Virus record (IMG/VR): IMGVR_UViG_3300044971_001605
Location: 1 to 24,462 of that record
Reading direction: 5' to 3' (one strand)
Origin: a virus
Length of the DNA: 24,462 nucleotides
In this document: in pieces, positions 1,150 through 20,880 of the stretch
How the letters are laid out: each line of letters begins with the position of its first letter
Position numbering within the stretch: position 1 is the first letter of the stretch
Made by a program: the position numbers and the translations under genes
The notes under the pieces: generated by a model
The model's database searches: none
The model's input: the letters and a program-made list of their open reading frames with translations, nothing else
Told to the model about the DNA's origin: nothing

Positions 1150-1191
1150 TTTAGATCACCTCCCGTAATGCACTTGCGGTGCACCAACTCT

Positions 1192-2409: not shown

Positions 2410-2422
2410 GGGTTTCACCCCA

Positions 2423-3092: not shown

Positions 3093-3094
3093 AC

Positions 3095-3262: not shown

Positions 3263-3319
3263 AGTTTAATCTCCTAATAGTATCTAGGTGTGTAATTTAT
3301 GAAATATTCAACAAAGTAT

Positions 3320-4138: not shown

Positions 4139-4155
4139 GGTGTAGTTTCCTGTTT

Positions 4156-4701: not shown

Positions 4702-4702
4702 T

Positions 4703-6562: not shown

Positions 6563-6563
6563 A

Positions 6564-7055: not shown

Positions 7056-7062
7056 ATACCAC

Positions 7063-7872: not shown

Positions 7873-7915
7873 CGGAATGTCCTTTCGATTGGGGGGAGTA
7901 ATTGCCTTGTCTACT

Positions 7916-7922
7916 TATTTAT
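7916..7922 (-). promoter_or_regulatory. Candidate late promoter box ATAAATA
   Basis: ATAAATA on the minus strand (in GAATAAATAAG), 43 bases before the ATG at 7872 and within a 77-base intergenic gap. It is closer to the canonical T4 late box TATAAATA than the CTAAATA copies, although its distance to the start codon is longer. Confidence 0.4.
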
Positions 7923-7949
7923 TCATTTCTGTAGCGTCACCCACGGAGT

Positions 7950-8900
7950 TTAATATTTGATTTGTTGTATGGGTTTATATTTAGGCTTGTTCAGCGACGC
8001 ACCATACGCTTGTAGCCCTGCAACCATAGAGTCCACGCCCCGTTGTGCTCGGGACGCTTCGTCTGCAATAGCCACACACTCGTCGTAAATACTTTTGCTT
8101 TTCACCACCAGCACCGTGTCTGTGCTCGGCCCGCCCATATCGCTGAAATGGCGATCACCCTGTGGGAATTCGTAGGACTTTAGCCCAATAGACGCACCCA
8201 CCCGTTGGGCTAGCCCACCGTAGATGCGCCCACGAGACGATTTAGCGTCCTGCTTGCGACCAAACAGTAGCCCACCAAAATCAGGTCGGCGGGTAAACGC
8301 TTTGGCAATCTCTATCACCGTGCCAAACACCCCGATGGACTGGCGTGGGTTCAGGTCGCCCACATCGTTGTCCACAAAATCGTTACTAGTGTTCCAGTCC
8401 GCAATGTGTTCGTCTGACCAGTAGTAGTGTCCGCTTATCTTGTCCAAATGGACAGGAAACGCTAGACGGGCAAAAGACAATTCGTATATCCGTTTACCGT
8501 CTGCTGTCACGAGTGGACGAATTTCGCTGCCCTTGTTCTCGCCCCACACAAATGCGTGCCCAAACGACACACGGAAAATGTGGGCTTGAATACTGGGCAA
8601 GTATAACATGCCTTGGGGAATCAGAAGCGGCGAAACCTTTTCCTGTACCCACTTGTCCATCTGCTCACCGCTTTGTACAGGAACACCGTAGCCGCTGTGG
8701 TATTTTCTGCCTGCGTTTCCCTTGTCAACACCAATCTCGGTGTCCAAGCCTTCGTTGCGGCTAACTGCAAAGTACCTGTGGTGCATCAAGTCTTCGTACT
8801 TGCCAACCCGACCCCATATTGTGGGCTTGGTGAGTTCTAGCCACGGTGCAGGGCGAGTAAACGCTTCGGTCAGATACGATTTGAACTGTAGACGGCTCAT
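7950..8900 (-). CDS. Hypothetical protein with capsid-targeting-like N-terminus, 316 aa
   Basis: A protein of 316 aa starting MSRLQFKSYLTEAF. The L-T-E before Ala is a textbook match to the T4 prohead-protease site, and the FKSYLTEA block is close to the T4 internal-protein leader MKTYQEFIAEA. No domain is recognised in the remainder. It is rich in aromatic residues (HHRYFAVSRNEG, GHYYWSDEHIADWN) and has a GRKQDAKSSRGRIYGG segment. Its ATG overlaps the stop of the preceding gene as ATGA, indicating translational coupling. I infer a head-packaged protein; the enzymatic role, if any, is unknown. Confidence 0.8.
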   Translation of the reverse strand: MSRLQFKSYLTEAFTRPAPWLELTKPTIWGRVGKYEDLMHHRYFAVSRNEGLDTEIGVDKGNAGRKYHSGYGVPVQSGEQMDKWVQEKVSPLLIPQGMLYLPSIQAHIFRVSFGHAFVWGENKGSEIRPLVTADGKRIYELSFARLAFPVHLDKISGHYYWSDEHIADWNTSNDFVDNDVGDLNPRQSIGVFGTVIEIAKAFTRRPDFGGLLFGRKQDAKSSRGRIYGGLAQRVGASIGLKSYEFPQGDRHFSDMGGPSTDTVLVVKSKSIYDECVAIADEASRAQRGVDSMVAGLQAYGASLNKPKYKPIQQIKY

Positions 8901-9382
8901 TGGGCAATTCGCTCCAACACAAACAGTTCACGCCCCATGCCCAAGGATTTTGTTGACTCAAGACGGTATCCTGCTTGTGCAGCGTATCGCTTGATAAGCG
9001 AGTTGTACAGTTTTACACGCGAGCCTGAACTGTACGAATATGTTTTTGCGTTTACTTCTGATTTGGCTGCGGTGAATGAAACCGTTTTTGGAGCGTAGCG
9101 TTTAACAAATCGTTTGAACCCGTCCATGACTGTTGCAAACACCTGTGTAGCCTTGCCTTCACCTGTGAGTGCAGTAGAACCACCGCGTGTAAAATCCATG
9201 TCCCAACCTTCGTCTTGTGGCTGAATGTACCCAAAGTTTATAACCAAGTAGTCTGCTTTGGGATCGGCTTCGTCACCGTCTGTGTAGTGGTACGCAGCGT
9301 GATCGGGGGCTTCCACCTTTTTCACAACCCGAAACGGCTTGTCGTACAGTTCAGTCAGATATGAGCGGAAATCGTGGTGCAT
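8897..9382 (-). CDS. Hypothetical protein, possibly GNAT-like, with capsid-targeting-like N-terminus
   Basis: A protein of 161 aa starting MHHDFRSYLTELYDKPF, with L-T-E at residues 9-11, nearly the same leader as the following gene (FKSYLTE). The middle (ATQVFATVMDGFKRFVKRY, KTVSFTAAKS) and the end (SRVKLYNSLIKRYAAQAGYR) show the helix followed by a strand and then an R-x-x-LY-x-x-L-x-x-R block seen in many uncharacterised phage proteins. This arrangement resembles the last helices and strands of N-acetyltransferases, but I see no clear acetyl-CoA binding loop, so GNAT is only a suggestion. It starts at a TAATG junction with the upstream gene and ends in an ATGA overlap with the downstream one, so the three genes are translationally linked. 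Confidence 0.78.
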   Translation of the reverse strand: MHHDFRSYLTELYDKPFRVVKKVEAPDHAAYHYTDGDEADPKADYLVINFGYIQPQDEGWDMDFTRGGSTALTGEGKATQVFATVMDGFKRFVKRYAPKTVSFTAAKSEVNAKTYSYSSGSRVKLYNSLIKRYAAQAGYRLESTKSLGMGRELFVLERIAQ

Positions 9383-10152
9383 TACGAGTTCAGGTAATCT
9401 AGTATTTCTTTGCCACGCAGCCAGCGGAGTTTCTGTGTGTTTCGTACCAAGCCTACTTCAAAGATTTCTACGCTGCCGCCCAAATCTATTATTTCTGGTC
9501 GCACGGATAGTATTTCACGAAGTGCGGCTTTAATGGAACTGCGATCAATGCCTTCAAGAGACGGTGTTTTTTCTCCACCGCTGTACACTTTGAGCCAACC
9601 CTTTATGTACGCAACACGCTGGACTTCGTAAGCCAAATCCATGTCCTCTTTTTCTATTCGCTCTTTGACTCGTTCAGCAGTGTACATGTGCTCGTCTCCG
9701 TTTTTGTCGTACCAACCCAAACCCCTTTGATTATAGTAGTATCCCTCTTTTTTTAATCCTTCATACAATTCTTGCTGACTAATACCGAAACGAGACGGGT
9801 TTCTTACCAATTGTGTTACATGGTAGCCGTTGCTGTGCGAGAATGTGTAGTTTTCCAGTTTGGGATTCCACCAGCCTGCAATGCTGGTCTTGTTGCCCCA
9901 CGGATACGGAGTACGAGACGGCTTTTGTGCTGCTGCTTTACGCTTGGCACGAATTCCTGCCCACGCTGCGGACAGGGCTTGCTTGTACCCCTTGCTTGTG
10001 CCTGCTGCACGCATCCTGCGATCAAATTCGTGTGTTAGTTTACGAGCACGAGGAGATTCAGGATCAGCACTCGCTGGGTCAAAAGCATTAGGGTTATCGT
10101 AAATGCCTAGACGCTCGTGTAGATTACGGATAAATTGGAAATAGTCTTTCAT
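9382..10152 (-). CDS. Hypothetical protein, 256 aa
   Basis: The start chosen is ATG 10152, giving 256 aa, because TAAAGGAAAACACATG puts a good ribosome site directly before it; an upstream in-frame start would overlap the previous gene. The product starts MKDYFQFIRNLHERL, with L-H-E at residues 11-13, a variant of the prohead-protease consensus. Visible segments: a basic helical region (RARKLTHEFDRRMRAAG, AWAGIRAKRKAAAQKPS), an aromatic central region (GYYYNQRGLGWYDKNGDEH), and a C-terminal alpha/beta part. No family is recognised. Its TAA overlaps the next ATG by one base (TAATG). Confidence 0.78.
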   Translation of the reverse strand: MKDYFQFIRNLHERLGIYDNPNAFDPASADPESPRARKLTHEFDRRMRAAGTSKGYKQALSAAWAGIRAKRKAAAQKPSRTPYPWGNKTSIAGWWNPKLENYTFSHSNGYHVTQLVRNPSRFGISQQELYEGLKKEGYYYNQRGLGWYDKNGDEHMYTAERVKERIEKEDMDLAYEVQRVAYIKGWLKVYSGGEKTPSLEGIDRSSIKAALREILSVRPEIIDLGGSVEIFEVGLVRNTQKLRWLRGKEILDYLNS

Positions 10153-10183
10153 GTGTTTTCCTTTAGAATATGTAGAGCAGGTT

Positions 10184-11104
10184 TCAACTCCACGGATCAC
10201 CCGAAAATTTAATGGTGGACGCTAATTTTTCAGATTCAAACTTGGCTCTCATTTTCAGGATTTTTTTACCACTTGCACTCACACCTATTGATTCGTTTCC
10301 AACTTTTTCTATTGAAATTTCACCCTTCATAATTGCGTCAAGTTTTTTGTTCTTGAGCGGGTCGTCTACTTTGGCAGTAATCTTTCCCGGTTTGTCGCCC
10401 ATGCCCGTGACTTTAACATACGGTGGGTATAAATCATTACTGGCATCCAACCAATTTTTCAATATGTAATCACGCAACTTTAAACTATCAAGTTCGTTCA
10501 AGCGGGTGTACATGATGTCTCGCACCTTGGCAAGCACTTGTGATCCTATCTCTTGTGTTTGTTTTTGTACGCCGGGTTTGTTACGAATAGCGTCTTTTCG
10601 TGCTTTTGAGTTTTCTGGTAGTTTAAATTTTTTTACAGCAGTGGTTACTGCTTCTGTGAGCACAGTGCTCAAATCCACTTCAAGTGCGGCTTCCACGGTT
10701 CCAATACCCGGATTCTTGAAACCAATATCACCCCCACCTGATGTGGATTTTGCGGACAGACCCAAGAATCCGTCAACTGGCCCTCTGGTGAATTGTATAA
10801 GAATGTCTGTGGGATTCTTGCGTGAGTCTACTTCTCGTCCAACCGCACGAGACAGCACACCCGGTCGTGCAGTCCACCACACCTTTTTTACTTTTCCAGA
10901 GTATTTGTGTGCTTTTGCCCATATCAAAAACTCTTCAACCATTCGTTCTGCCCGTTCAATTTGAATAGCAGTTCGTGACGCACCAATCACCTTGGATTTG
11001 CGATTGAATTGATTTTTTGCTTCGGCATCCCACCATTTACTACCTGCCAGTAAATAACCAACATAAATTTCATTCACATCTGCTAGGTCTGTGTTTGATG
11101 GCAT
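10184..11104 (-). CDS. Hypothetical protein, candidate PD-(D/E)XK-fold nuclease
   Basis: A protein of 306 aa from an ATG behind CGGAGAAGCAC, with a CTAAATAA box 20 bases further up. Residues 8-22 (ADVNEIYVGYLLAGS) form an N-terminal helix with a conserved-looking Glu. Residues 98-120 read PTDILIQF, then DGFLGLSAKSTSGGGDIGF, giving an Asp100 and S-x-K (Lys119) arrangement, followed by KNPGIGTVEAALEVD. An Asp at the end of one strand and (S/E)xK in the next is the layout of restriction-endonuclease-fold nucleases, with Ser in the position usually held by Asp or Glu. This is my inference from pattern, not a recognised family. The C-terminal half is basic. There is no (L/I)xE leader. Confidence 0.78.
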   Translation of the reverse strand: MPSNTDLADVNEIYVGYLLAGSKWWDAEAKNQFNRKSKVIGASRTAIQIERAERMVEEFLIWAKAHKYSGKVKKVWWTARPGVLSRAVGREVDSRKNPTDILIQFTRGPVDGFLGLSAKSTSGGGDIGFKNPGIGTVEAALEVDLSTVLTEAVTTAVKKFKLPENSKARKDAIRNKPGVQKQTQEIGSQVLAKVRDIMYTRLNELDSLKLRDYILKNWLDASNDLYPPYVKVTGMGDKPGKITAKVDDPLKNKKLDAIMKGEISIEKVGNESIGVSASGKKILKMRAKFESEKLASTIKFSGDPWS

Positions 11105-11124
11105 GTGCTTCTCCGTTATAGCAA

Positions 11125-11132
11125 TTATTTAG
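11125..11132 (-). promoter_or_regulatory. Candidate late promoter box CTAAATAA
   Basis: CTAAATAA, 20 bases before the ATG at 11104 and immediately downstream of the terminator hairpin of the preceding gene. Terminator followed by promoter is the expected order for a new transcription unit. Confidence 0.55.
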
Positions 11133-11133
11133 G

Positions 11134-11160
11134 CAAAAGAAAAACCCCCTTGCGGGGGGA
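11134..11160 (-). terminator. Intrinsic terminator (bidirectional-looking)
   Basis: Reading leftward, C5 (11155-11159) and G5 (11145-11149) form a GC-only stem around a short loop, followed by TTTTTCTTTT (11135-11144). It ends the 11187-11747 transcript. The opposite strand has ATTCTTTTTT after the same stem, so it could also stop rightward transcription. Confidence 0.8.
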
Positions 11161-11186
11161 TTCTTTTTTACAAATTGATTTTGGGT

Positions 11187-11747
11187 TTACCGTTTGTAAT
11201 TCCTGTAAGGGATGGTGCTCCTGCTGTCATCGTACTCTATTTCTCGCCCCGTATTACCGTAGTGAGTTCGTGCCCACTCTTTCTTGTCTGCGGCAGTCCA
11301 TTTACGATTTACTCGCTGATTGTACGCTGTACGAGTATCCACCACTTTGCCACCCGTGCCGTACACATTCTCTTTGTCAGCCTTTTCTGCTGCGTCTGTT
11401 GCCTTGAGTTTGCGTGCATCCGCTGCTGCGTCTTTTGCCTTGAGTTTATGTGCAACCGCTGCTCGCTTGCGTGCAGGCGTTGATGTGTCTTTTGCCTTGA
11501 GTCTATGCTTATCCGCTGCCTGTTTCTTTTTACGGATGCTTGAGTACATTTCGTAATCTCGTTCAGGAGTCTGCAAGTCTTCTAGTAGTGCCTGTGGATC
11601 AAGGTCTAGTGCTTCGCAAAGGTCAAGAATTACTGCTTCAAGAATACTGGTGTACTCCATAGCCTCGTCCAGTGCAGCAATTGGGTTTTGGATGCGTGCA
11701 ATGCTCTCGTTGAGCGAACGGAATGTGTTGGTGTTGAATCGTGCCAT
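11187..11747 (-). CDS. Lys/Ala-repeat protein with capsid-targeting-like N-terminus
   Basis: A protein of 186 aa from an ATG behind AAGGAGATACACTA. The N-terminus MARFNTNTFRSLNES has L-N-E before Ser, the prohead-protease consensus, and closely resembles the DUF6321-like protein at 22227 (MRFNSSKYRALNES). Residues 25-58 are an acidic helix. Residues 80-125 carry a repeated KLKAKD unit (RLKAKD, KLKAKD, KLKATD) rich in Lys and Ala, like a histone tail. Residues 128-136 read VYGTGGKVV. EDLQTPERDYEM (56-67) and VYGTGGKVV both recur in the adjacent gene, so the two proteins share modules. Likely a DNA-binding internal head protein (inference). Confidence 0.8.
   Translation of the reverse strand: MARFNTNTFRSLNESIARIQNPIAALDEAMEYTSILEAVILDLCEALDLDPQALLEDLQTPERDYEMYSSIRKKKQAADKHRLKAKDTSTPARKRAAVAHKLKAKDAAADARKLKATDAAEKADKENVYGTGGKVVDTRTAYNQRVNRKWTAADKKEWARTHYGNTGREIEYDDSRSTIPYRNYKR
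11395..11520 (-). repeat. 36-base tandem repeat coding KLKAKD units
   Basis: Two adjacent 36-base units (11395-11430 and 11431-11466) and a diverged third (11488-11520), sharing the core TTGCCTTGAGT on the plus strand. In the protein they encode repeating Lys-Leu-Lys-Ala-Lys/Thr-Asp blocks. Confidence 0.75.
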
Positions 11748-11767
11748 TAGTGTATCTCCTTGTGCTG

Positions 11768-11775
11768 TTATTTAG
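11768..11775 (-). promoter_or_regulatory. Candidate late promoter box CTAAATAA overlapping a stop codon
   Basis: CTAAATAA, 20 bases before the ATG at 11747. The last three bases, TAA, are the stop codon of the 11768-12709 gene. Confidence 0.5.
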
Positions 11776-12709
11776 TTTTCTTGGCTGTCTTGGCTGCTCG
11801 TGCTTTACGACGCTGCATTGCTGCCATGTTGGCGTTTACTCGTGCGCCACTCACCTCACGGTTGGTCTTGAAGCCTTTGCCTGTAAGCAGATTCTTGGAC
11901 GCTTGAAAGAAATCCACTTCGTCAATGATGCGTTCGTCTAGTTGTGCGCCTTCCTGTACCTTGCGCTTGGCTATTGCATCCAGTTTCTTGCTTTCACGAC
12001 GAGCGTACTCGTGGTGTGCCTTGGCTGCGGAATGGATGGGTGACTTCTCACCAGTGGGTGACACCGCACCTTTGCGGGTTTCGGCAGCAGCATTGCGCGC
12101 CCCACGAGCCAGCACTGCTTCACGCTCGGTGGGTGAGAGTTTCTGCTTGGGGTTGTTGAGTGCGTTCAGCATCCGCTCCCGTTCACGGGCAAACACCTTT
12201 TGTTGAGCAGGTGTCACGGCTTCCTTTACAGGCTTGCCCTTTGGTGCTTTTTTGTCCTGTTGCTTTGAGCGGAGCAGATCGCCCAGCGTGGGGTTGAATG
12301 GGTTGAACGGCTTTTTGTCACCGCCTTGTGGAGACGCGGATTCACGCACCACCTTGCCGCCCACACCGTATGTCTTTTTGCTGCTGCCTTCCTTGCGTTG
12401 AGTGGTGTACAGTGCATTTCGCTTTTTTACTGCTGCGTTGAAACGCTCTCCAGCCGCACGAAGTGCCTTTGCTGCCTTGGGGTTGGTGTCAGGAGACTTG
12501 GCTTCTGCGTCCCATGCCTGAATGTAGCGGCTAGACGCTGCGTCGCTGCCGTGTTCTGCTGCCTTCATCTTGCGCTTCATCTGCCGCTCACGAGCAGGGG
12601 TTTGGATGTCTTCCTCTACAGGTCGGGGTTGCCCGTTCACCACGCCGTTAATGGCAGCGGTCAGATCAGGGTGTTCGTCACGAGAAAAGGGGTTGTGGAT
12701 GGGGTTCAT
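11768..12709 (-). CDS. Basic, low-complexity hypothetical protein sharing modules with its neighbour
   Basis: A protein of 313 aa from an ATG behind ACAGGAGAACAACCCCAC. It is very rich in Lys, Arg and Ala, especially at the C-terminus (AAMQRRKARAAKTAKKTK). EDIQTPARERQM (33-44) and TYGVGGKVV (113-121) match blocks in the next gene (EDLQTPERDYEM and VYGTGGKVV) at similar spacing: 80 residues here against 72 there. A related block, PVKEAVTPAQQKVFARERER, appears around residue 160. No catalytic motif and no (L/I)xE leader are seen. A nucleic-acid-binding or head-internal role is inferred from charge and context only. Confidence 0.78.
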   Translation of the reverse strand: MNPIHNPFSRDEHPDLTAAINGVVNGQPRPVEEDIQTPARERQMKRKMKAAEHGSDAASSRYIQAWDAEAKSPDTNPKAAKALRAAGERFNAAVKKRNALYTTQRKEGSSKKTYGVGGKVVRESASPQGGDKKPFNPFNPTLGDLLRSKQQDKKAPKGKPVKEAVTPAQQKVFARERERMLNALNNPKQKLSPTEREAVLARGARNAAAETRKGAVSPTGEKSPIHSAAKAHHEYARRESKKLDAIAKRKVQEGAQLDERIIDEVDFFQASKNLLTGKGFKTNREVSGARVNANMAAMQRRKARAAKTAKKTK

Positions 12710-12732
12710 GTGGGGTTGTTCTCCTGTTTTTA

Positions 12733-12740
12733 TTATTTAG
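12733..12740 (-). promoter_or_regulatory. Candidate late promoter box CTAAATAA overlapping a stop codon
   Basis: CTAAATAA, 23 bases before the ATG at 12709. The TAA stop of the 75-aa gene (12737-12739) sits at the start of the box. Confidence 0.5.
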
Positions 12741-12964
12741 TGTTTACGGCTCCGCGCTTCGTTCATACCCACTGCAAGTTCGGCTCCAGTCTTGGACAGC
12801 CGCCCCTTCAGCACTTTAGCAATTTCACGGTGCAACCGCTTGTGGGCACGCTCACCCCGTGCGCCCGGATACTCCCGCAAATCGTTTGTGTTTGCCGCAC
12901 CCAAAGCACTAAGCGAGTCGCGTGCGAGCCGTGCTTCGGCAAAGAATGTGTGGGGGCATTTCAT
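12737..12964 (-). CDS. Hypothetical 75-aa protein
   Basis: I take ATG 12964 as the start, four bases after the stop of the upstream gene (12969-12971); an alternative start five codons earlier would overlap that gene. The product begins MKCPHTFFAEARLARDSL, is basic and helical (RAHKRLHREIAKVLKG), and ends in EARSRKH. The F-A-E before Ala at the N-terminus resembles the capsid-targeting leader but has Phe instead of Leu or Ile, so I do not count it as a clear case. No family is recognised. No strong ribosome site is visible, which fits coupling to the upstream gene. Confidence 0.65.
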   Translation of the reverse strand: MKCPHTFFAEARLARDSLSALGAANTNDLREYPGARGERAHKRLHREIAKVLKGRLSKTGAELAVGMNEARSRKH

Positions 12965-12968
12965 ACTT

Positions 12969-13388
12969 TTACTTGACACTCAACACTGTCAGCACACCGT
13001 CACTCCACTCGCCTGTGCCCACAGCGGTGCGTTCCAATTTGTCCCAGTCCGCTCGTGCGTCACTCTTGTGTACACGGGTACGCCCACGCATCCACCAGTC
13101 ACCACGAGACGGATTCCACCAGTACTCCCCACGGTAGTGGTACACATATTGGGAATCGGTAGCGTCTTCCACCCATGCGTGTACAGGCGTTTTGCCACTG
13201 GAAGCAGGTGTAAGCCTGTTGCCACTGTGCTGTTCGGGTTCCATTAGTATCCACGCGTGAATGACTGCGTGGGTACGCGAACTGTGCCGTACCTTTTCCA
13301 TGAACGCACTCATGGACGACTCCATACGGCTTTTACGGCGTGCTGCGTCGGTGGCGGCTTCGGTGATGTGGGCGGCAAAGCGTTTCAT
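12969..13388 (-). CDS. Hypothetical protein with capsid-targeting-like N-terminus, 139 aa
   Basis: A protein of 139 aa starting MKRFAAHITEAATDAARRK, with I-T-E directly before Ala, matching the T4 prohead-protease site. The body has two similar strands, HAVIHAWILMEP and TPVHAWVED, then an aromatic stretch YVYHYRGEYWWNPS followed by GDWWMRGRTRVH. No family is recognised, and the Trp-rich region suggests a small beta fold. The start overlaps the upstream stop as ATGA, so the pair is translationally coupled. Confidence 0.75.
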   Translation of the reverse strand: MKRFAAHITEAATDAARRKSRMESSMSAFMEKVRHSSRTHAVIHAWILMEPEQHSGNRLTPASSGKTPVHAWVEDATDSQYVYHYRGEYWWNPSRGDWWMRGRTRVHKSDARADWDKLERTAVGTGEWSDGVLTVLSVK

Positions 13389-13798
13389 ACGGTGGTTGTA
13401 CCCCTTTTAATCGTGCCGTGTAGTTGGCGAGAGAACAGGTTGGAGCGGTAGTCTAGTGGTGCGCCCACTACTGCGTTTCGTTCTGCCCAAGCACCGCCTG
13501 TGGTTCTGGACAGCACAAGGTCGCGTACTTCCACGGTGTCGCCCACACGGAGCGGAGGCAGGTCTTCCCGTGTTTCGCTCGTGCCGATATACCCCATGAG
13601 CATCCACCCTTCGGATGTGTGTATACGCACACGCCACCGCCAAAACAGTTTTTTATTTCTGTAGTTTTTGGTTAGCCGCCCGTGTACGGCTACCGCAGAG
13701 ATCACGGTTCCAGTAATGGTAAATCTACTAACAAAGTACTCGCCACGAGGGCGTGGGCTGTGTGTGTTGGTGGCGAGGTGTGCAGAAAACGATTTCAT
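13385..13798 (-). CDS. Hypothetical beta-rich protein, 137 aa
   Basis: Start taken at ATG 13798 (137 aa); a TTG two codons earlier is possible but less likely. The N-terminus MKSFSAHLATNTHSPRPRG resembles that of the next gene (MKRFAAHITEA) but lacks the Glu of the cleavage motif. The body is rich in beta strands (FTITGTVISAVAVHGRL, WRWRVRIHTSEGWMLMGYIG, VGDTVEVRDLVLSRT), consistent with a small barrel such as an OB-fold, though this is not a recognised match. No clear ribosome site is seen upstream. The 140-base gap before it contains no gene; it holds an AATATT-TGAG-AATATT palindromic pair near 13851-13866. Confidence 0.7.
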   Translation of the reverse strand: MKSFSAHLATNTHSPRPRGEYFVSRFTITGTVISAVAVHGRLTKNYRNKKLFWRWRVRIHTSEGWMLMGYIGTSETREDLPPLRVGDTVEVRDLVLSRTTGGAWAERNAVVGAPLDYRSNLFSRQLHGTIKRGTTTV

Positions 13799-13938
13799 GT
13801 GCAAATATGTAGGAAACCCCTATATCTGAATGCTATGGGCGTTTCTGTCTAATATTTGAGAATATTGCACCACATCGCCCCACTCTGCCCCACATTACGG
13901 AATACCTGAAATAATAGGGTTGAGCGTGTGATACGGCT

Positions 13939-14226
13939 TTACATTGCGCCGTATTTTTTACCACGCAGACTTGCGGCTTTATCTAAAGTGTTGTGTGTGG
14001 ACTTGGGCTGTCCCCGCTTCATTTTATTCATTAACGCCTTGAACTCGCTGCCTGGCCCCTTGGTAGCGTCCACCCCCATCGTACACACACTCACCCCACG
14101 CCGCACGCATTTCCGCTTTTTACATTTGGGACACGGGGCAGCACACGGGGAGTCGCGTTCTGGGATAGGCAGCACCGTCTCCCACGCGCCGCTGCATTTC
14201 TCACAATGGTATTCGTATACGGGCAT
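13939..14226 (-). CDS. FmdB-type zinc-ribbon protein
   Basis: A 95-aa protein with start ATG 14226 behind GGAGGATTTACACT, a very good ribosome site. The N-terminus MPVYEYHCEKC is the hallmark of the FmdB/CxxC zinc-ribbon family, followed by a second knuckle CPKCKKRKC. The four likely zinc ligands are Cys8, Cys11, Cys32 and Cys35. FmdB-like proteins are small putative regulators of transcription and occur in bacteria and phages. The C-terminal half is basic (NKMKRGQPKSTHNTLDKAA) and could bind nucleic acid. A 7-base stem, ATACGGC/GCCGTAT (13931-13937 and 13948-13954), spans its stop codon but has no leftward U-tract, so I do not call it a terminator. Confidence 0.85.
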   Translation of the reverse strand: MPVYEYHCEKCSGAWETVLPIPERDSPCAAPCPKCKKRKCVRRGVSVCTMGVDATKGPGSEFKALMNKMKRGQPKSTHNTLDKAASLRGKKYGAM

Positions 14227-14250
14227 AGTGTAAATCCTCCGCTCTATCTA

Positions 14251-14685
14251 TTACACACCCCCCTTGAGTTTCTTAAGGTAATTCTTTTTTTCTCGCAGCA
14301 GTACACGGCGAGGCATGGGCAATCTGAATTCTCGGCAGATTTCCAGTGCTTCCCGCTCGGTGGCTTCTTCCAAGGTGTAGTAGTCTTTCTCGTTGAAAAT
14401 AGGGTCATCACGCATCCACTGTAGAAAGTGGGCGTATTCGTGTGCTAGTGAGAACAGCCATTCGCTAGTACGGCGACCACCTGTGGCTACCTTTAAAGCA
14501 CCGCGTGCAGCAGAGGTACTCTTTGCAGTGTGGTCAGGCGGTTCAAAAATGCCTTGGCAGCGTTCGCCGTCCAATGAATTAATTTGGTAGCCGCTGCTCA
14601 TTACAAAACGAATATTGCACTTGCGGCACTGTGAGCGGATGGTGCGGATGAAGTCGCGGACACGGGGGTTCTTTAGGTACGCCAT
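14251..14685 (-). CDS. HExxH zinc metallopeptidase-like protein
   Basis: A protein of 144 aa with start ATG 14685 behind GGAGGATTCCACAC. Residues 77-90, LFSLAHEYAHFLQW, hold the zinc-protease motif HEYAH (82-86), with an aromatic-rich helix typical of minigluzincin/SprT- or IrrE-like domains. EEATEREALEICREF (106-120) follows about 20 residues later and could supply the third Glu ligand. Two Cys near residues 20-23 (CRKC) might form half of a knuckle. Substrate unknown: processing of a phage or host protein is the obvious option. It is the first gene of the leftward block, divergent from the VWA gene, which also carries an HExxH motif. Confidence 0.8.
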   Translation of the reverse strand: MAYLKNPRVRDFIRTIRSQCRKCNIRFVMSSGYQINSLDGERCQGIFEPPDHTAKSTSAARGALKVATGGRRTSEWLFSLAHEYAHFLQWMRDDPIFNEKDYYTLEEATEREALEICREFRLPMPRRVLLREKKNYLKKLKGGV

Positions 14686-14777
14686 GTGTGGAATCCTCCA
14701 GAGGTATGTTGCTATTCTACCACAAGGAAAATGGAAGAAAAGCGTAAACCCTTTATTTGAAAGCAGTTATACGCGCT

Positions 14778-14849
14778 ATTACCGGACATTGGAATACTTT
14801 AAATGGAAATACCCCTTGCAAAGCCCCGTTTTTATGGTATATTTTAGGT
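14778..14849 (+). promoter_or_regulatory. Sigma70-type promoter with upstream element, leaderless start
   Basis: TTGCAA (14816-14821), a 16-base spacer and TATATT (14838-14843), then 6 bases (TTAGGT) and the ATG at 14850. With standard geometry the first transcribed base is the A of the ATG, and there is no ribosome site. ATTACCGGACATT begins 38 bases before the -35 box, and AGCGTAAA 75 bases before it (14741). Both recur at the same distances before the promoter at 17231. Confidence 0.75.
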
Positions 14850-17132
14850 ATGCAGAACTCTACCGCTACGGCTACCACCGCCCCGAACACCTCCACCAAG
14901 AGCGTGCTTGCGCGTCTTCTTGCCACTGAAAACATTTCCGTGGAGCACAGCAATGTGCCCACCGCTGCGTTCGACTTGAAGACCCGCACCCTCATCCTGC
15001 CCCGTTGGAAGGATATGAGCAACGCGCTCTACGATATGCTTGTGGGTCACGAAGTGTCGCACGCGCTGCACACGCCGCAGACCGGCTGGAGCACGGACTC
15101 CAAGACGCTTGCCGCCAAGCACGGCGTGAGCGAGGGTGTGGCGCGTCAGTACCTCAACATTGCAGAAGACGCTCGCATTGAGCGACTGATTAAGAATCAG
15201 TTCCCCGGTCTGCGTGCAGACTTCTTCAAGGGTTACGGTGAACTGCTCGCGCAGGACTTCTTCAAGACGCAGGGCAGCGACTGGAACACCCTGTGCTGCG
15301 GCGACCGCGTGAACCTCCACTTCAAGTTGGGTCTGCACACTGGTGCAAGCATTACTTTCAACGCGCACGAGCAGGGCATCGTGGACGCGCTTGATGCTGC
15401 ACAGACTTGGGAAGACGCTGTTGCTGCTGCTGATGCCATGCTTGCGGTGGACGCTGGCAAGTGGATGAAGGAAAAGCAGGACAGCAACAGCGACCAGTCG
15501 GACGGCGCGAGTGGCTCGGGCGAAGGCGAAGAGCAGGAGAGCCAGTCACAGTCGGGCAGCGGTGAAGGCGAAGCCAAGAGCGAGAGCGGCAGCACCACTA
15601 CTGATGGTGGCGACGAATCCGCTAGCAACGGCGGTAGCCCTGAAGACTCGCAGGGTGGCGACACTGGTGGCAACCAGCCGTCGCACGGCAATTCGCAGAG
15701 CGAGAAGCCGCAGAGCGATATGCCCATGCCCACCACGCAGAGTGCTTTTGAGAATGCCATGAAGACGCTGAACGACACCAGCCGCAGCGGTTACGATGTC
15801 AAGACGCTGCGCGTGTGCGATACACAGGACGCTGTTGTGGACTTCAAGAGCGTGCTCGCTGATGTGGAGCGCATCGTGGCTCGTCTCAATCCCGTTGTGG
15901 AGCCGTTCCGCAGCGCAGAGTACAAGACTGCCAGCACCGCGATGGCTACCGCGTTTGATCGTCGCAAGTCTGCGGATATTTGGAAGCGCACCGTGATTGC
16001 CAAGACTGGTGGCGTTGATCCTCTCCGCATGACGCAGTACAAGTGGAACGAAGACATTTTCCGTCGCACCGCTCGCGTCACCACTGGCAAGAACCACGGC
16101 ATCGTGATTCTGCTTGACTGGAGCGGCTCCATGTGCAGCATCATGCAGCAGACTCTGGGTCAGTTGATCATCTTGACTGATTTCTGCCGCATGGCTGGCA
16201 TCCCCTTTGAAGTGTTTGCGTTCACCGATTCGCCGTACCTCAAGTTGGAGAAGGGGGTTGATCCGTACAGCGACGATGTGTACACGCAGTACAAGGCACA
16301 GCGCGAAGCGTGGGAAAAGCCCATGATTGGCAAGGCTGCAACCGTGCAGGTGAGTCTGCTGAATTTCTTTAGCAGTCGCATGACCGCTCCGCAGTACGAG
16401 CGCATGAAGAGCATGTTGTGGCGGCACTGGGGCACGATCACCAATGATCGCTGCTACCGCATGGGTTCCACGCCCACCGTTTCGGCACTGTACCACATTG
16501 TGCCTGTTGTGGAGAACTTCCTCAAGGTGAACCGCATTCAGATTGCACACACCGTGGTGCTGACTGACGGCGAAGCCACCGATGGGTTCTTCACGAACAC
16601 CAGTGGTAGTGGGTATCGCACCCACCATGTGATGCAAGACCCGCAGACTGGCGTGTCGTATGATATTGATACGCACTACTGCACGGGTGCTGACGGCAAG
16701 TACGGCAGTTTCCAGCGTGGCACTGTGCGTTGGGAAAACCCGTACAACGCTTCGGTGTGTGCTGCCATTGACATTCTGCGCCGTCGCACGGGTTCCAAGG
16801 TGCACTGGATCGGTCTGACCGAGCGTCAAAGCACTAATGTGCCCAACATGGGTGGCTTTGTGCCGTCTGCCAAGGGCAACAACTGGAGCCGTGACGGTTT
16901 TGCCCGTGGTACTGCGTGTGGTTTTGACACTGCGGTGGTGGCTGTGGCAGCGCGTTTCGGTGACGCAGGCAATAATGCGTGGATTGAACGGCAGATGCAC
17001 AAGATGGACGAGAAGATTGATGCGGCAAAGAGTGCCCGCACGCTGGTGACGGCTGTGGTGAACAAGCAGGCCATGGCAAATTCCATGCGTTCGCTGTCCA
17101 CCATCATCGGCGAGTACCTTGCACTGGCGTGA
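14850..17132 (+). CDS. CobT-like VWA protein with HExxH motif
   Basis: A 760-aa protein. The ATG at 14850 is preferred over upstream in-frame codons because the -10 box ends 6 bases before it. Residues 57-75 contain MLVGHEVSHALHTP, with HEVSH at 67-71, and IAEDARIE (104-111) may complete the metal site. Residues 207-290 are a low-complexity acidic Ser/Gly/Gln/Glu linker. The C-terminal VWA domain begins near 415: VILLDWSGSM supplies the DxSxS metal site (Asp423, Ser425, Ser427), GSTPT follows at 539-543, and VLTDGE carries Asp573. Family knowledge: AAA+/VWA pairs such as CobS-CobT or MoxR-VWA remodel protein complexes or insert metals, and cyanophages carry CobS. The next operon encodes the matching ATPase. 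Whether this is cobaltochelatase or a general remodelling pair cannot be decided here. The base composition is more GC-rich than the leftward block. Confidence 0.88.
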   Translation: MQNSTATATTAPNTSTKSVLARLLATENISVEHSNVPTAAFDLKTRTLILPRWKDMSNALYDMLVGHEVSHALHTPQTGWSTDSKTLAAKHGVSEGVARQYLNIAEDARIERLIKNQFPGLRADFFKGYGELLAQDFFKTQGSDWNTLCCGDRVNLHFKLGLHTGASITFNAHEQGIVDALDAAQTWEDAVAAADAMLAVDAGKWMKEKQDSNSDQSDGASGSGEGEEQESQSQSGSGEGEAKSESGSTTTDGGDESASNGGSPEDSQGGDTGGNQPSHGNSQSEKPQSDMPMPTTQSAFENAMKTLNDTSRSGYDVKTLRVCDTQDAVVDFKSVLADVERIVARLNPVVEPFRSAEYKTASTAMATAFDRRKSADIWKRTVIAKTGGVDPLRMTQYKWNEDIFRRTARVTTGKNHGIVILLDWSGSMCSIMQQTLGQLIILTDFCRMAGIPFEVFAFTDSPYLKLEKGVDPYSDDVYTQYKAQREAWEKPMIGKAATVQVSLLNFFSSRMTAPQYERMKSMLWRHWGTITNDRCYRMGSTPTVSALYHIVPVVENFLKVNRIQIAHTVVLTDGEATDGFFTNTSGSGYRTHHVMQDPQTGVSYDIDTHYCTGADGKYGSFQRGTVRWENPYNASVCAAIDILRRRTGSKVHWIGLTERQSTNVPNMGGFVPSAKGNNWSRDGFARGTACGFDTAVVAVAARFGDAGNNAWIERQMHKMDEKIDAAKSARTLVTAVVNKQAMANSMRSLSTIIGEYLALA

Positions 17133-17192
17133 GCCGCAGCACATTCTGCAAAAACAGCGTAAATTCCCTCCCCACAGGGGTTTACGAAGTGG

Positions 17193-17265
17193 ATTATCGG
17201 ACTTTTTGAATCGTTTTTCGCAAAAAACCCTTGACAGGAACCCAAAAATCGGGTAAATTATTGAT
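17193..17265 (+). promoter_or_regulatory. Sigma70-type promoter with upstream element, leaderless start
   Basis: TTGACA (17231-17236), a 17-base spacer and TAAATT (17254-17259), then 6 bases (ATTGAT) and the ATG at 17266, so transcription should start at the start codon. ATTATCGGACTTT at 17193 and AGCGTAAA at 17156 lie 38 and 75 bases before the -35 box, the same offsets as in the 14816 promoter. Confidence 0.75.
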
Positions 17266-18615
17266 ATGAAGAACTCTACCTACACTCTTACTTCGACCCA
17301 GCACGCCTTCGTTACCGCCGTTCGCCCGTATTTCCACGGAGGAAACTTCGGCAAGGGCGGCGGCGTGATGTACAGCGAACTGCTTGCTGCTGCCAAGCGC
17401 GCTGGCTACTCCGCAGTGCCCGCGTGGTGCATGACCGCAAGCCGCAAGTCCGGTCGTGGCTTCTACATGCTGCCCGAAATCATGGCAAGCGACTCGGATA
17501 TCACCGTGATCGCGGTGAAGCGTGGTCGCCCTGCGGGTGCAAAGACCGCAAACAGCGCAACCAAGACTCCCGCACCTGCTGCGGCTCCTGCGTCTCGCGC
17601 TGCTGCTGCGCTTGCGTCCGTGGTTGCGGACTCCTCGGTGGCTACGCGCATCACCACGGGCAGCGGCGTGTCGCTCACTGCTGATGCGGCGTGCATGGTG
17701 GCAAGCCTGACGGGCGGCGAGCGCACTTCGTTCACGCCTGACACCGACAGCAACTACATTGCGTGGGGCTACCACAGCGAAATCGAGACGATTATCGCGT
17801 CCAAGGCGTTTTGCCCTGTGTTCATCACGGGCATGAGCGGCAACGGCAAGACCACGATGGTGGAACAGGTGTGCGCCAAGTTGGGACGCGAGTGCATTCG
17901 CGTGAATTTCACCGTGCAGACGGATGAAGACGAACTGCTTGGCGGTTTCCGTCTGATTGCAGGCGAAACCAAGTTCGTTCCCGGTCCCGTGCTTGTGGCA
18001 ATGGAGCGTGGCGCGGTGCTGCTGCTTGACGAGGTGGATCTGGGCGGTCACGCCATCATGTGCTTGCAGTCGGTGCTGGAGGGCAAGGGCAAGTTCATCC
18101 CCAAGATTGGTCAGTATGTGCGTCCTGCTGCGGGTTTCACCATCGTGGCAACCGCAAACACCAAGGGCAAGGGCAGCGCAGACGGTCGCTTCGCTGGCAC
18201 GAATCAGTTGAACGAGGCGTTCCTTGACCGCTTCCACTTCTGCTACGAACAGGACTACGCAGAGCCGAAGGTTGAGAAGAAGATTCTCAAGAAGTACGCG
18301 GGTTCGCTCGGTGTGAGCGACGATGATTTCATGGACAATCTCGTGAACTGGGCTGATCTGGTTCGCAAGTCGTTCAAGCAGCAGATCGTGAACGAGATCA
18401 TCACCACGCGCCGTCTGCGTGACATCGTGTTCGCGTTCAGCGTGTTCGGCGACAAGATGCAAGCCATTGAGCGTTGCGTGTCGCGCTTCGATGAGGAGAC
18501 GAAGAATGCGTTCACGGAGTTCTACACCAAGATCGACGCGACTGCCAAGACTCCTGATCCTGTTGCGGCTCCTGTTGATGCCGCTCCTGCTGCTTCCACC
18601 AAGTGCCCCTTCTGA
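17266..18615 (+). CDS. cobS: CobS-like AAA+ ATPase (MoxR/AAA_5 type)
   Basis: A 449-aa protein. Residues 1-95 form an N-terminal domain with AVPAW (50-54), SGRGFYMLPEI (62-72) and KRGRPAGAK; an Ala/Pro linker follows (100-125). The AAA+ core has Walker A GMSGNGKTT (189-197), Walker B LLLDEVD (252-258), sensor-1 ATAN (295-298) and an arginine-finger region LDRF (320-323). EDELLGGFRL and the insert before sensor-1 are typical of CobS/MoxR ATPases. Family knowledge: CobS is the ATPase of aerobic cobaltochelatase and is common in T4-like cyanophages; it acts with CobT. Here the CobT-like partner lies directly upstream under a matching promoter. No CobN is present in the window. The C-terminal tail (427-449) is Ala/Pro-rich. 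There is no ribosome site; the start is leaderless. Confidence 0.88.
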   Translation: MKNSTYTLTSTQHAFVTAVRPYFHGGNFGKGGGVMYSELLAAAKRAGYSAVPAWCMTASRKSGRGFYMLPEIMASDSDITVIAVKRGRPAGAKTANSATKTPAPAAAPASRAAAALASVVADSSVATRITTGSGVSLTADAACMVASLTGGERTSFTPDTDSNYIAWGYHSEIETIIASKAFCPVFITGMSGNGKTTMVEQVCAKLGRECIRVNFTVQTDEDELLGGFRLIAGETKFVPGPVLVAMERGAVLLLDEVDLGGHAIMCLQSVLEGKGKFIPKIGQYVRPAAGFTIVATANTKGKGSADGRFAGTNQLNEAFLDRFHFCYEQDYAEPKVEKKILKKYAGSLGVSDDDFMDNLVNWADLVRKSFKQQIVNEIITTRRLRDIVFAFSVFGDKMQAIERCVSRFDEETKNAFTEFYTKIDATAKTPDPVAAPVDAAPAASTKCPF

Positions 18616-18635
18616 TCCACGAAAGGAAAACCACA

Positions 18636-18671
18636 ATGAATCCCACAATGAATCCCACAATGAATCCCACA
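18636..18671 (+). repeat. Triplicated 12-base start-codon repeat
   Basis: ATGAATCCCACA occurs three times in tandem (18636, 18648, 18660), encoding M-N-P-T three times. Each unit carries an in-frame ATG; only the first has the AAAGGAAAA ribosome site (18622-18630) at good spacing. Confidence 0.9.
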
Positions 18672-19010
18672 AAAGGACTACTCACAGGCATCACCATTGA
18701 ATCCGATGAATACAAGGATTCGTTCAAGCGGCGTATGCGCTTGTATCTCGCAAACGGATACACCATCAGCATGGTGTACGGCACAGGCATGTACTCGCAC
18801 ACTCTGAACGGTGAACGCCACGGTGATACACCCCCCGGCGGGCTGACCACGCCTGAAGCCAAGGCTGTGGAAATCGCGGTGCTTGATCCTATGGGCAAGT
18901 TTGTGCCCTTCAAGGACAGCGAAGAGGTTCGCGGATACACTGATATGGACACCATGCTTGGAATCGTGTGGTGGGCAGCGTCTCTGCCGCCACTTGCTGC
19001 TACTGTCTAA
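18636..19010 (+). CDS. Hypothetical protein with three tandem start codons, 124 aa
   Basis: A protein of 124 aa starting 20 bases after the ATPase stop, so probably in its operon. The ribosome site AAAGGAAAA fits the first ATG (18636). The product starts with M-N-P-T three times, then a compact domain: LTGITIESDEYKDSFKRRM, YLANGYTISMVYGTGMYSHT, a Pro/Gly turn, AKAVEIAVLDPMGKFVPF and a final helix (DTMLGIVWWAASLPP). No family is recognised. The alternating strand/helix pattern suggests a small alpha/beta fold. Position between the ATPase and the copy of its N-terminal domain suggests a linked function, by context only. Confidence 0.8.
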   Translation: MNPTMNPTMNPTKGLLTGITIESDEYKDSFKRRMRLYLANGYTISMVYGTGMYSHTLNGERHGDTPPGGLTTPEAKAVEIAVLDPMGKFVPFKDSEEVRGYTDMDTMLGIVWWAASLPPLAATV

Positions 19011-19042
19011 ATCTCTCAACTCACACACACAAAGGAAACACA

Positions 19043-19402
19043 ATGAACACCAACACCAACACCAACATCATGCTCCCCTCGTACACCCCCGGTCAGATCG
19101 CCTTTATTCAGTGGATTCAGCAGAACCGCAGCAAGATCACGGTTTTTGACGAATGCACCGTGAGCCGCAAGGAACTGCTGGCACTGCTCCAGAGTGATTC
19201 TGCGTACATTGCCGTGCCTGCGTGGATTGCTGCGCCCAAGTCGCGCCGTAGTGGTCGCGGAAACTACTTGATTCCTGAAATTAATGCAGAGATCAAGACG
19301 CTGGTCGTGAACACCAATAATCGCGGACGCAAGGCTGGCAGCAAGAATGTCAAGGGCACGGCTCCGGCTGCGGTTCCGTCTCCGGCTCCCGTCAAGGCGT
19401 AA
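19043..19402 (+). CDS. Stand-alone homologue of the CobS-like N-terminal domain
   Basis: A 119-aa protein with ribosome site AAAGGAAA and start ATG 19043. After an Asn/Thr repeat (MNTNTNTN), residues 14-105 align with residues 9-100 of the ATPase at 17266. Shared blocks are IAVPAWIAAPKSRRSGRG here against SAVPAWCMTASRKSGRG there, then YLIPEI against YMLPEI, then RGRKAGSKN against RGRPAGAKT. Both continue into an Ala/Pro-rich stretch, but this protein ends there (PAAVPSPAPVKA) and has no ATPase core. It could compete with, dock to or regulate the ATPase, or bind the same ligand. The homology is seen directly; the role is inference. Confidence 0.85.
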   Translation: MNTNTNTNIMLPSYTPGQIAFIQWIQQNRSKITVFDECTVSRKELLALLQSDSAYIAVPAWIAAPKSRRSGRGNYLIPEINAEIKTLVVNTNNRGRKAGSKNVKGTAPAAVPSPAPVKA

Positions 19403-19409
19403 ATTACCC

Positions 19410-19482
19410 GTCCCCGTAACTCAGTGGATAGAGTAGCCGCCTTCTAAGCGGCAAGTCAGTGGTTCAAATCCACTCGGGGACG
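19410..19482 (+). tRNA. tRNA-Arg (anticodon TCT)
   Basis: A complete 73-base cloverleaf. The acceptor stem GTCCCCG/CGGGGAC is perfect with discriminator G. The D stem is ACTC/GAGT, the anticodon stem GCCGC/GCGGC, the loop CTTCTAA with anticodon TCT at 19443-19445, the variable loop AAGTC, and the T arm AGTGG-TTCAAAT-CCACT. The 3' CCA is not encoded. It reads AGA. It lies 8 bases after the previous stop codon, inside what appears to be one transcript, so it must be cut out of a protein-coding message. Confidence 0.95.
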
Positions 19483-19523
19483 CTTCCCCCGTACACTCGC
19501 AAACCTACAAGGAAACACACAGC

Positions 19524-19727
19524 ATGTGCAAGCAACTCCGAATGAGTGATTTTGAGCGTTCCATCCGTTCCGATTCGCCCATGTACCCGCACGATCCTGA
19601 TGCGGATTGGGACGATGATTGGATCGAATTCCCCAGCGATGACGAAGGCGGCACAGACATGGAAGCCGATGTGACCGATTCTGCTGATGAATTCCCCGAT
19701 GAACCGTGGGACACCGACGCGGAATAA
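19524..19727 (+). CDS. Very acidic 67-aa protein
   Basis: A 67-aa protein between two tRNA genes, with start ATG 19524 behind ACAAGGAAACAC. By my count it has 17 Asp and 7 Glu but only four Lys/Arg, a net charge near -20. After a short mixed N-terminus (MCKQLRMSDFERSIRSDS) the chain is almost continuously acidic with spaced Trp/Phe/Pro (DADWDDDWIEFPSDDEGG). No family is recognised. Small, strongly acidic phage proteins are often nucleic-acid mimics that block host DNA- or RNA-binding enzymes, but this is inferred only from composition. A later ATG (19542) is possible. Confidence 0.75.
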   Translation: MCKQLRMSDFERSIRSDSPMYPHDPDADWDDDWIEFPSDDEGGTDMEADVTDSADEFPDEPWDTDAE

Positions 19728-19735
19728 ATGCACCC

Positions 19736-19808
19736 GGGTGCGTAATCCAACGGCAGAGATAGGGGACTCAAAATCTCCACAGTGTGGGTTCGAATCCCAC
19801 CGCACCTA
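19736..19808 (+). tRNA. tRNA with CAA anticodon (Leu) but short variable loop
   Basis: A 73-base cloverleaf. The acceptor is GGGTGCG/CGCACCT (one G-U pair) with discriminator A. The D stem is ATCC/AGAT (three pairs), the anticodon stem GGGGA/TCTCC, the loop CTCAAAA with anticodon CAA at 19769-19771, the variable loop ACAGT, and the T arm GTGGG-TTCGAAT-CCCAC. No encoded CCA. CAA reads the Leu codon UUG, yet the variable loop is only 5 bases, whereas bacterial tRNA-Leu normally has a long variable arm. The fold is clear; the charged amino acid is uncertain. Confidence 0.85.
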
Positions 19809-19855
19809 TTCTAATAGATACTTTGCCCCCATTAGTAGAGTTCTGCGGGCAACAG

Positions 19856-19891
19856 CCCTGATCGCGTAGTGCGGTCAGGGTTTTTTTATTT
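19856..19891 (+). terminator. Strong intrinsic terminator of the ATPase-tRNA operon
   Basis: CCCTGATCGC (19856-19865), loop GTAGT, then GCGGTCAGGG (19871-19880) form a 10-pair stem with one G-U pair, followed by TTTTTTTATTT. It closes the transcription unit that starts at 17266. Confidence 0.9.
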
Positions 19892-20450
19892 CTACAGGGG
19901 TTTCCCGCGTGTGTGGAAGCCCTGAACACGCGCTACAAACACGGTTGTTACGGGTCACGCGAGTCGGGCGTTTGCGGACCAGTCATTTCGGGCCCCTATG
20001 GGGTGGAGGGGGGCCGGCTAGCCGTACCGCGAAGAATCCCGAAGCCACAATTCAAAAATTGGGACTCCTAGAAATGCCTAAAGTAGATTTCAAATATTGG
20101 GACTCCTATGAGTCTCTCCCAAGATTTCAAATATTCGTTTACGGAATTCGCTTTTGGCGAACTTTACCTTCCACCTTTTCAAATATTCATCAGCACACGC
20201 ACGGCGTGCCGCCACACGCGCTGCCCCGCCTGTACCCCCATCAGCCCCACCCCACACAGCGCAGCCCCGTACAACGGCGCGTAGCCCCGTCCCCTATCCC
20301 TATACGGAACCCCATGCCCACTCTCTAATCGGTTACTGCCCGTGTTTTCAAATATGGGCACGGCACGCGCTGGTGCGGGAAGCACTTAAACTATTACGGT
20401 AACAGGTAAAGTTTTAATTCCACACTGGACGAAAAAAATATTCCACACCA
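19892..20450 (+). other. Non-coding region, about 560 bases, no convincing gene
   Basis: A gap between a terminator and a promoter. Open frames here are short of protein-like composition and lack ribosome sites. The left part is GC-rich with runs such as GGGCCCC and GGGGGGCC. The middle holds AT-rich TTCAAATAT repeats, and the right part has a CCCCNCCC-rich stretch (around 20200-20330). An origin, operator cluster or packaging signal are all possible; nothing here decides among them. Confidence 0.6.
20051..20356 (+). repeat. Five TTCAAATAT-type direct repeats
   Basis: Copies at 20051, 20089, 20126, 20178 and 20347. The first two extend to a 20-base repeat ending GGGACTCCTA, with one mismatch, 38 bases apart. 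The next steps are 37, 52 and 169 bases. They are AT-rich islands in GC-rich surroundings. Confidence 0.75.
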
Positions 20451-20478
20451 TTGCACTCCCACAGGGGTGTGTTATACT
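20451..20478 (+). promoter_or_regulatory. Sigma70-type promoter, leaderless start
   Basis: TTGCAC (20451-20456), a 16-base spacer, TATACT (20473-20478), then 6 bases (AGGGGC) and the ATG at 20485. The geometry is identical to the two promoters upstream, placing the transcription start on the A of the ATG, though AGGGG could also act as a very close ribosome site. Confidence 0.75.
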
Positions 20479-20484
20479 AGGGGC

Positions 20485-20880
20485 ATGACACAACCCGTTT
20501 ACCGCTTGTGGGCACGATTCGCGGAACCACGCACACCCGGTGCAAAGCACAACATCACCACCGTGCATCCGTACAACTACTATGTGGAATTCGCTCCTGA
20601 CCACGAAACCCGAAAGTGCACCATGACTATGGCATCGCCGGAATCACCGCTGTGGGCACGCACACCAATCATAGGCACGCTGGCGCGTAGGTACAATCGC
20701 AAGCACAAGACCGAATCTGGCACGATTATTATATACACGGAAACCGCTCGTCTTGCGTGGAGACTGCTGATTCGTAGCGGTTGGCACACCAGTGTTGCGG
20801 ACGCAAGCCGATGCGCGCCCACGGTGCTGCTTTCACAAGCAGAGTTGGATGCGGTGGTGTCGGTAGAGGTCAAGGCGTAA
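20485..20880 (+). CDS. Hypothetical protein, 131 aa
   Basis: A protein of 131 aa beginning MTQPVYRLWARFAEP, with the start fixed by the promoter, whose -10 box ends 6 bases before the ATG; an earlier in-frame ATG lies inside the promoter. It has a mixed fold: YNYYVEFAPDHETRKCTMTM, a basic helix (GTLARRYNRKHKTESG), a hydrophobic strand (TIIIYTETARLAWRLL) and a C-terminal helix. No family is recognised. It is followed after 3 bases by the 20884 gene, so the two form an operon, probably early given the promoter type. Confidence 0.75.
   Translation: MTQPVYRLWARFAEPRTPGAKHNITTVHPYNYYVEFAPDHETRKCTMTMASPESPLWARTPIIGTLARRYNRKHKTESGTIIIYTETARLAWRLLIRSGWHTSVADASRCAPTVLLSQAELDAVVSVEVKA

Follow-up and report, generated by a model that had tools for sequence, protein, structure and literature searches.

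Sigma70-type promoters six nucleotides before start codons predict leaderless messages in a clade of uncultured T4-like phages

Introduction

The classical leaderless messages of phages, those of lambda cI and other phage repressors, come from a sigma70 promoter whose first transcribed base (+1) is the A of the AUG and are initiated by 70S ribosomes (compare PMC9031893); that phage transcripts are often leaderless is also a general remark in the literature. Pertinent here is a virus record of 24,462 bases from IMG/VR (IMGVR_UViG_3300044971_001605; the whole record is termed the window below), in which a cobT-like gene, a cobS-like gene and a third gene are each preceded by a promoter of the host sigma70 type with the -10 box a fixed 6 nucleotides (nt) from the start codon. 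In the repressor cases a single regulatory gene of each temperate phage is involved; each T4-like genome considered here appears to have several such genes, of early, replication and regulatory kinds. The reading argued for, very probably correct on the sequence comparisons below, is that RNA from these promoters starts with the A of the ATG and that the mRNAs are leaderless.

Two other known types invite comparison. Bacterial leaderless ('TA-led') genes, as Zheng et al. 2011 (PMC3160421) describe them, carry TANNNT with its first T about 12 nt ahead of the start codon. The position of the motif, here with its first T at exactly -12, and the lack of a Shine-Dalgarno (SD) sequence are shared. 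However, the TA-led genes are on bacterial chromosomes, being richest in Actinobacteria and Deinococcus-Thermus, while those considered here belong to T4-like phages, have a strong -35 box and stand among a majority of SD-led genes. For the cluster O mycobacteriophages (the Corndog group), SigA-like promoters with +1 at the first base of the start codon have been predicted, though for a host in which leaderless mRNAs are common, and the portion of that report consulted names three promoters and has no genome-wide test (PMC4351075).

Among relatives in the broad sense, T4 and the cyanomyoviruses have early promoters with the same host consensus, TTGACA/TATAAT, but in T4 and the cyanophages used below as controls the -10 is mostly about 20-31 nt before the start, with room for a leader carrying an SD. 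The pelagimyophages Mosig and HTVC008M and the methylophage Melnitz are also T4-like, and early sigma70 promoters have been predicted in the parts of the published work consulted (PMC7029224, PMC9004378); Mosig in addition has a cobT-like gene and the distance peak described below, yet all three are of a separate lineage, outside the clade of the window. Those same parts make no mention of leaderless geometry, and in the literature searched, which mostly left out subscription papers, there is no report of leaderless messages in T4-like phages, pelagiphages or cyanophages.

Promoter layout at three genes of the window

A first-pass annotation of the window had pointed to a -35 box, a spacer, a -10 box and then 6 nt to the ATG for the genes starting at 14850, 17266 and 20485, and the sequence agrees in each case (Table 1). 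The -35/-10 spacers are 16 nt for cobT, 17 nt for cobS and 16 nt for the third gene, and the first T of each TANNNT-like -10 is at -12 from the start codon (a distance, d, of 6 from the end of the -10 to the ATG). Given the usual 6-nt discriminator, this position of the -10 makes the A of each ATG the predicted +1. No SD match at the three starts exceeds 3 nt. That all three promoters are of the sigma70 type holds for cobT and cobS in both hexamers and spacing (scores of 9/12 and 10/12) but is less secure for the third, which scores 8/12 and whose -35 matches at only three of six positions, a deficiency partly rescued by its extended -10.

Hexamers of this kind are not significant by themselves, since a consensus scan of bases 1-20000 yielded 13 promoter-like sites against 15 expected from shuffles, no excess. 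The significance is in their position: with both hexamers required to match at 4/6 or better, a threshold that the -35 of the third gene falls below, 2 of 22 window starts have a promoter at d=6 where shuffles give 0.056 (P=0.002). The companion proposal, that the other genes have a ribosome site instead, holds broadly though not strictly, an SD match of at least 4 nt being present at 74% of the 19 other window genes versus 26% in shuffles.

Table 1. Features of the window that bear on the predicted leaderless genes; promoter boxes were read from the sequence
Feature	Position	Strand	Remarks
RTTAYYGGAC element before cobT	14778..14787	+	ATTACCGGAC; 28 nt to -35; present in eight group contigs
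cobT promoter, -35	14816..14821	+	TTGCAA; TTGCAA/TTGCCA/TTGTAA in relatives
cobT promoter, extended -10	14835..14843	+	TGG + TATATT (hexamer 14838-14843); 6 nt to ATG
cobT-like gene, 760 amino acids	14850..17132	+	phrog_459 'peptidase', PHROG E 8e-139; predicted leaderless
RTTAYYGGAC element before cobS	17193..17202	+	ATTATCGGAC; 28 nt to -35
cobS promoter, -35	17231..17236	+	TTGACA, 6/6
cobS promoter, -10	17254..17259	+	TAAATT; 6 nt to ATG; not of extended type
cobS-like AAA+ ATPase gene, 449 amino acids	17266..18615	+	phrog_249 E 5e-103, Pfam AAA_5; predicted leaderless
Contrast gene, next after cobS	18636..19010	+	purine-rich SD (gaaaggaaaaccaca ATG); leadered type, no -10 at 6 nt
Contrast gene, second after cobS	19043..19402	+	purine-rich SD (caaaggaaacaca ATG); leadered type, no -10 at 6 nt
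Third promoter, -35	20451..20456	+	TTGCAC; weak, 3/6 to TTGACA
Third promoter, extended -10	20470..20478	+	TGT + TATACT (hexamer 20473-20478); 6 nt to ATG
Third predicted leaderless gene, 131 amino acids	20485..20880	+	no known family

Conservation of the layout before cobT and cobS

The check suggested with the original proposal, a search of related phages for -10 boxes before cobS- and cobT-like genes, was run, and the box is retained at 6-8 nt with no ribosome site there. Relatives whose identity ranges from 74% to about 31% keep the promoter layout at cobT, in surroundings that have diverged. The distance to the start is 6 nt in L050, L051, L053, L091, L092, L096 and L097, 7 nt in L098, L099, L100 and L101, and 8 nt in L102; those from an alignment search at 31-42% identity (L053, L091, L092 and L096-L102) are thus all within 6-8 nt, and -10 variants in relatives at these distances are TATTAT, TACAAT and TATAAT. 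From L105 onward the homologs are cyanophage-like and mostly leadered, and in several cases (L107, L115, L129) a purine-rich ribosome site is present. Before cobS, the near relative L004 (82% identical) has 6 nt, L005-L008 (67-70%) have 7 nt, with GTG as the start in L006-L008, and in most relatives TAGAAT, TATAAT or TACAAT is at 7 nt, with G013 at 9 nt.

The third gene, the weakest of the three cases though probably also of leaderless layout, has only two relatives in IMG/VR, both near-identical strains, and its product has no Pfam or PHROG match. In L047 its -10 is unchanged though ungapped identity over the preceding 150 nt is only 81%.

Recurrence of the distance across the clade

In a genome-wide test, intergenic TTGACA/TATAAT-like sites with spacers of 16-18 nt were paired with ATG codons opening an open reading frame of at least 40 codons, and d was recorded. 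(Counts of TATAAT without a -35 were dropped as too noisy in AT-rich genomes, in favor of this joint test.) Nine contigs of the window group were pooled (G001 of 147 kb, G002 of 113 kb, G010 of 126 kb, G011 of 119 kb, G012 of 135 kb, and shorter ones), with T4, S-PM2, DSL-LC02, G018, Cr30, phiM12 and DLP6 as seven control phages. With a score of at least 10/12 required, the d=6 bin of the nine contigs holds 27 promoter-ATG pairs and the d=7 bin 5, where 3.4 would be expected in the two combined (P=2e-20); removal of cobS and cobT leaves 24 and 4 (P=1e-16). At 11/12 or better, d=6 accounts for 17 of 45 pairs and d=7 for 2, the 19 together comparing with 1.2 expected (P about 1e-16). The pooled controls have 6 pairs where 6.1 are expected at d=6-7, no excess, most control pairs being in the 20-31 nt range noted above. 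Even singly, G010, G011, G012 and G014 each have a peak of 4-5 at d=6.

Recurrence at many genes of a related uncultured clade indicates a real expression strategy and not chance. It extends to one isolate: in the Pelagibacter phage Mosig the d=6 bin holds 6 pairs and the d=7 bin is empty, with 0.7 expected (P=1e-4), and four of the Mosig starts at d=6 (MT647606 positions 95079, 96375, 111468 and 15683) are identical to those annotated by its depositors. The absence of a strong peak in HTVC008M, which has the same host as Mosig, and in Melnitz implies that the strategy is not general to pelagiphages. On the genomes compared, the layout belongs to a clade of uncultured T4-like phages and is shared by at least one pelagiphage isolate.

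Start-site signatures and the genes concerned

Two features of the starts themselves are pertinent. An SD match of at least 4 nt is present at 20% of 44 starts of the d=6 type, which is background level, versus 58-74% of other genes. The base before the ATG is C or T in 42 of the 44, while at other starts the share is 48% (Fisher p 2e-11); when each gene family is reduced to a single representative, the count is 26 of 28 (p 6e-7). Sigma70 start sites prefer a pyrimidine at -1 and a purine at +1. The bias is therefore as expected if the A of the ATG is +1, there being no reason for it in an SD-led gene. Retention of the layout at cobT and cobS, its recurrence in the clade, the lack of an SD and the -1 pyrimidine together support the proposal of leaderless mRNAs from sigma70-type promoters.

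The layout also precedes the genes for DNA polymerase gp43 in G010, uvsY and gp55 in G011, exonucleases in G010, G012 and G015, UvdE, WYL_2 and DUF5710 in G001 (with 8 nt in the case of DUF5710), and, in Mosig, gp33 and gp62. No virion gene is among the recognisably named genes with it. From their names the genes fit an early, replication and regulatory set. A regulon specific to cobS and cobT, as had been suggested, is too narrow a description given these other genes, though an additional upstream element is common to cobT and cobS and missing from the third gene.

An element upstream of some of the promoters

This element, RTTAYYGGAC, read as a putative binding site for a factor, was present upstream of the promoters of cobT, cobS and the DUF5710 gene in 18 of 18 cases tested, from eight contigs, and was not found before the third window gene. 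Its spacing to the cobT -35 is 28 nt in close relatives and 27, 41 or 67-69 nt elsewhere (41 or 67-69 nt in four contigs), and to the cobS -35 17-18 or 28 nt in six contigs; the commonest spacings overall, 16-18 and 27-28 nt, are about one helical turn apart. In a scan with a DNA pattern of element plus promoter the matches listed are mostly chance; the few among them with a start codon at 6-8 nt include further cobS-like genes, in which the element is at a distance of 17-18 nt.

Attention is also drawn to an inverted repeat, CAGGGGTTT / AAACCCCTG, at 17175-17183 and 17225-17233 of the window, flanking element and -35, and present too in G001 (about 126890-126960) and G002 (about 98195-98260). 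At the DUF5710 promoter of G002 both arms are changed together (CAGGGGATTC / GAATCCCCTG). It may be an operator, a hairpin or a terminator.

Alternative explanations

Nearest to a leaderless start is one where RNA begins 1-3 nt 5' of the ATG, giving tiny leaders and little difference for translation. Distances of 7 or 8 nt in relatives point that way (in G001, 8 nt for cobT and 7 nt for cobS; for the DUF5710 gene, 8 nt in four contigs), as does the variation of 1-2 nt that is normal for sigma70 start sites. However, the pooled peak is sharp, the 27 pairs at d=6 being followed by only 5 and 3 in the next two bins (d=7 and d=8), and the pyrimidine is directly before the ATG, as expected for +1 there, so tiny leaders are rather unlikely as the general case.

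Promoters of the T4 late or middle type, dependent on gp55 or MotA, would remove the host sigma70 from the argument. Relatives do encode gp55 and gp33, and the upstream element at cobT and cobS could be taken in that sense, but the explanation is improbable. A T4 late promoter is TATAAATA without a -35, while the window has TATATT, TAAATT and TATACT with -35 hexamers, and across the contigs compared there are clear -35 hexamers (many of them TTGACA) at 16-18 nt, with no required TATAAATA. The kinds of genes named above are also not those of the virion. The place of the MotA box (-30) of a middle promoter is taken here by the -35 hexamer.

If the annotated starts were wrong, the promoters would be ordinary ones with a normal leader and an SD-led start further downstream. 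Sequence cannot prove start codons. Nevertheless, codons 1-54 of cobT differ from those of L050 by 15 synonymous and 5 nonsynonymous changes, which argues that the N-terminus is translated, and the start codon and first residues of cobS are conserved in relatives, with N-termini aligning from residue 1. Next in-frame start-like codons are mostly without a good SD, and with the depositors of Mosig having picked the same starts, misannotation is very improbable.

Least probable of all are chance matches to loose hexamers in AT-rich intergenic DNA, for which the lack of promoter-like excess in the window scan and the 3/6 of the third -35 might speak, but which conservation over deep divergence and the d=6 peak oppose and which are already refuted for cobT and cobS.

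Several points do weigh against truly leaderless messages. Upstream read-through could yield leadered copies of the same messages, and the distances of 7-8 nt in several relatives would mean a leader of 1-2 nt. Gene starts outside Mosig came from a purpose-made, simple codon-usage caller, some instances are homologous and hence not independent, and the score thresholds were picked after the first counts, yet the d=6 peak is there at 9, 10 and 11. The excess at d=6 in HTVC008M and Melnitz is weak. The third gene adds its poor -35 and its occurrence in near-identical strains only.

Lineage, host and neighboring features

A five-protein tree unites G001, G002, G010, G011 and G012 in one clade (support 1.0) and sets them apart from cyanophages, pelagiphages and T4. 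Relatives G001 and G002 have the T4 core genes gp17, gp18, gp20, gp23, gp43, UvsX and gp55; in the window itself the reference set used recognises only cobS, cobT and an exonuclease homolog. Since none of the phage records listed is more than 56% identical to the gp23 of G001, no isolate is known, and megablast of 20 kb of a relative against phage records gave no match. The photosystem gene psbA (Photo_RC) was not found in G001, G002, G010, G011, G012 or the smaller contigs, which may be incomplete, and is present in the comparison contig G018. WhiB was also not found.

As to the host, a genome scan with the cobS alignment gave no match, and a DNA search for transfer-messenger RNA (tmRNA), run on 115 genomes from the class to which G025 belongs, gave none either and is uninformative. 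A genome scan with gp23 gave only hits at 45-60% identity, scattered over bins of many phyla; these were taken for phage contigs in the wrong bins and discarded. The tmRNA genes of the relatives are of the permuted two-piece type (RF04321; L060:15221-15501 of G001 at 66.8 bits and L067:2595-2872 of G002 at 71.6 bits), as already reported for Melnitz and other aquatic phages (PMC9004378). G001 also has an S-adenosylmethionine lyase-like gene (PF23780, L061:775-1626), possibly for anti-restriction, and a Mom-like DNA modification gene (PF25680, L057:13528-14445).

Within the window, the gene after cobS starts with three head-to-tail copies of ATGAATCCCACA (18636-18671), resulting in three successive in-frame candidate start codons with one SD in front. 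Genes for tRNA-Arg(TCT), at 19410-19483, and tRNA-Leu(CAA), at 19736-19808, are 3' of cobS, and the same pair follows cobS in G001.

Implications

On entry of the DNA, host holoenzyme would read the -35 and the (in some cases extended) -10 without phage factors, possibly with help at cobT and cobS from a factor binding RTTAYYGGAC. The resulting 5'-triphosphate-AUG end may then be bound directly by 70S ribosomes with formylmethionyl-tRNA, as for lambda cI, without an SD, and the genes concerned would thereby be early and under a translational control unlike that of the SD-led majority. A further step, that throughout the clade the early, replication and regulatory genes make up a leaderless class of their own, initiated by 70S ribosomes and set apart from SD-led late genes, is possible but doubtful. 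If it were so, the class could stay on when the phage, or stress of the host, limits canonical initiation, and RTTAYYGGAC would be a new clade-specific activator site.

Known leaderless phage mRNAs are mainly those of single repressor genes and of actinobacterial phages, whereas a systematic, conserved strategy is apparent here, one that in some members takes in such key genes as those for DNA polymerase and the late sigma factor gp55. The simple rule of a -10 box 6 nt before the ATG would serve both to correct gene starts and to predict early genes in these phages, and with Mosig on Pelagibacter HTCC1062 there is an isolated phage that makes the strategy testable. By implication, these phages have hosts that are good at translating leaderless messages.

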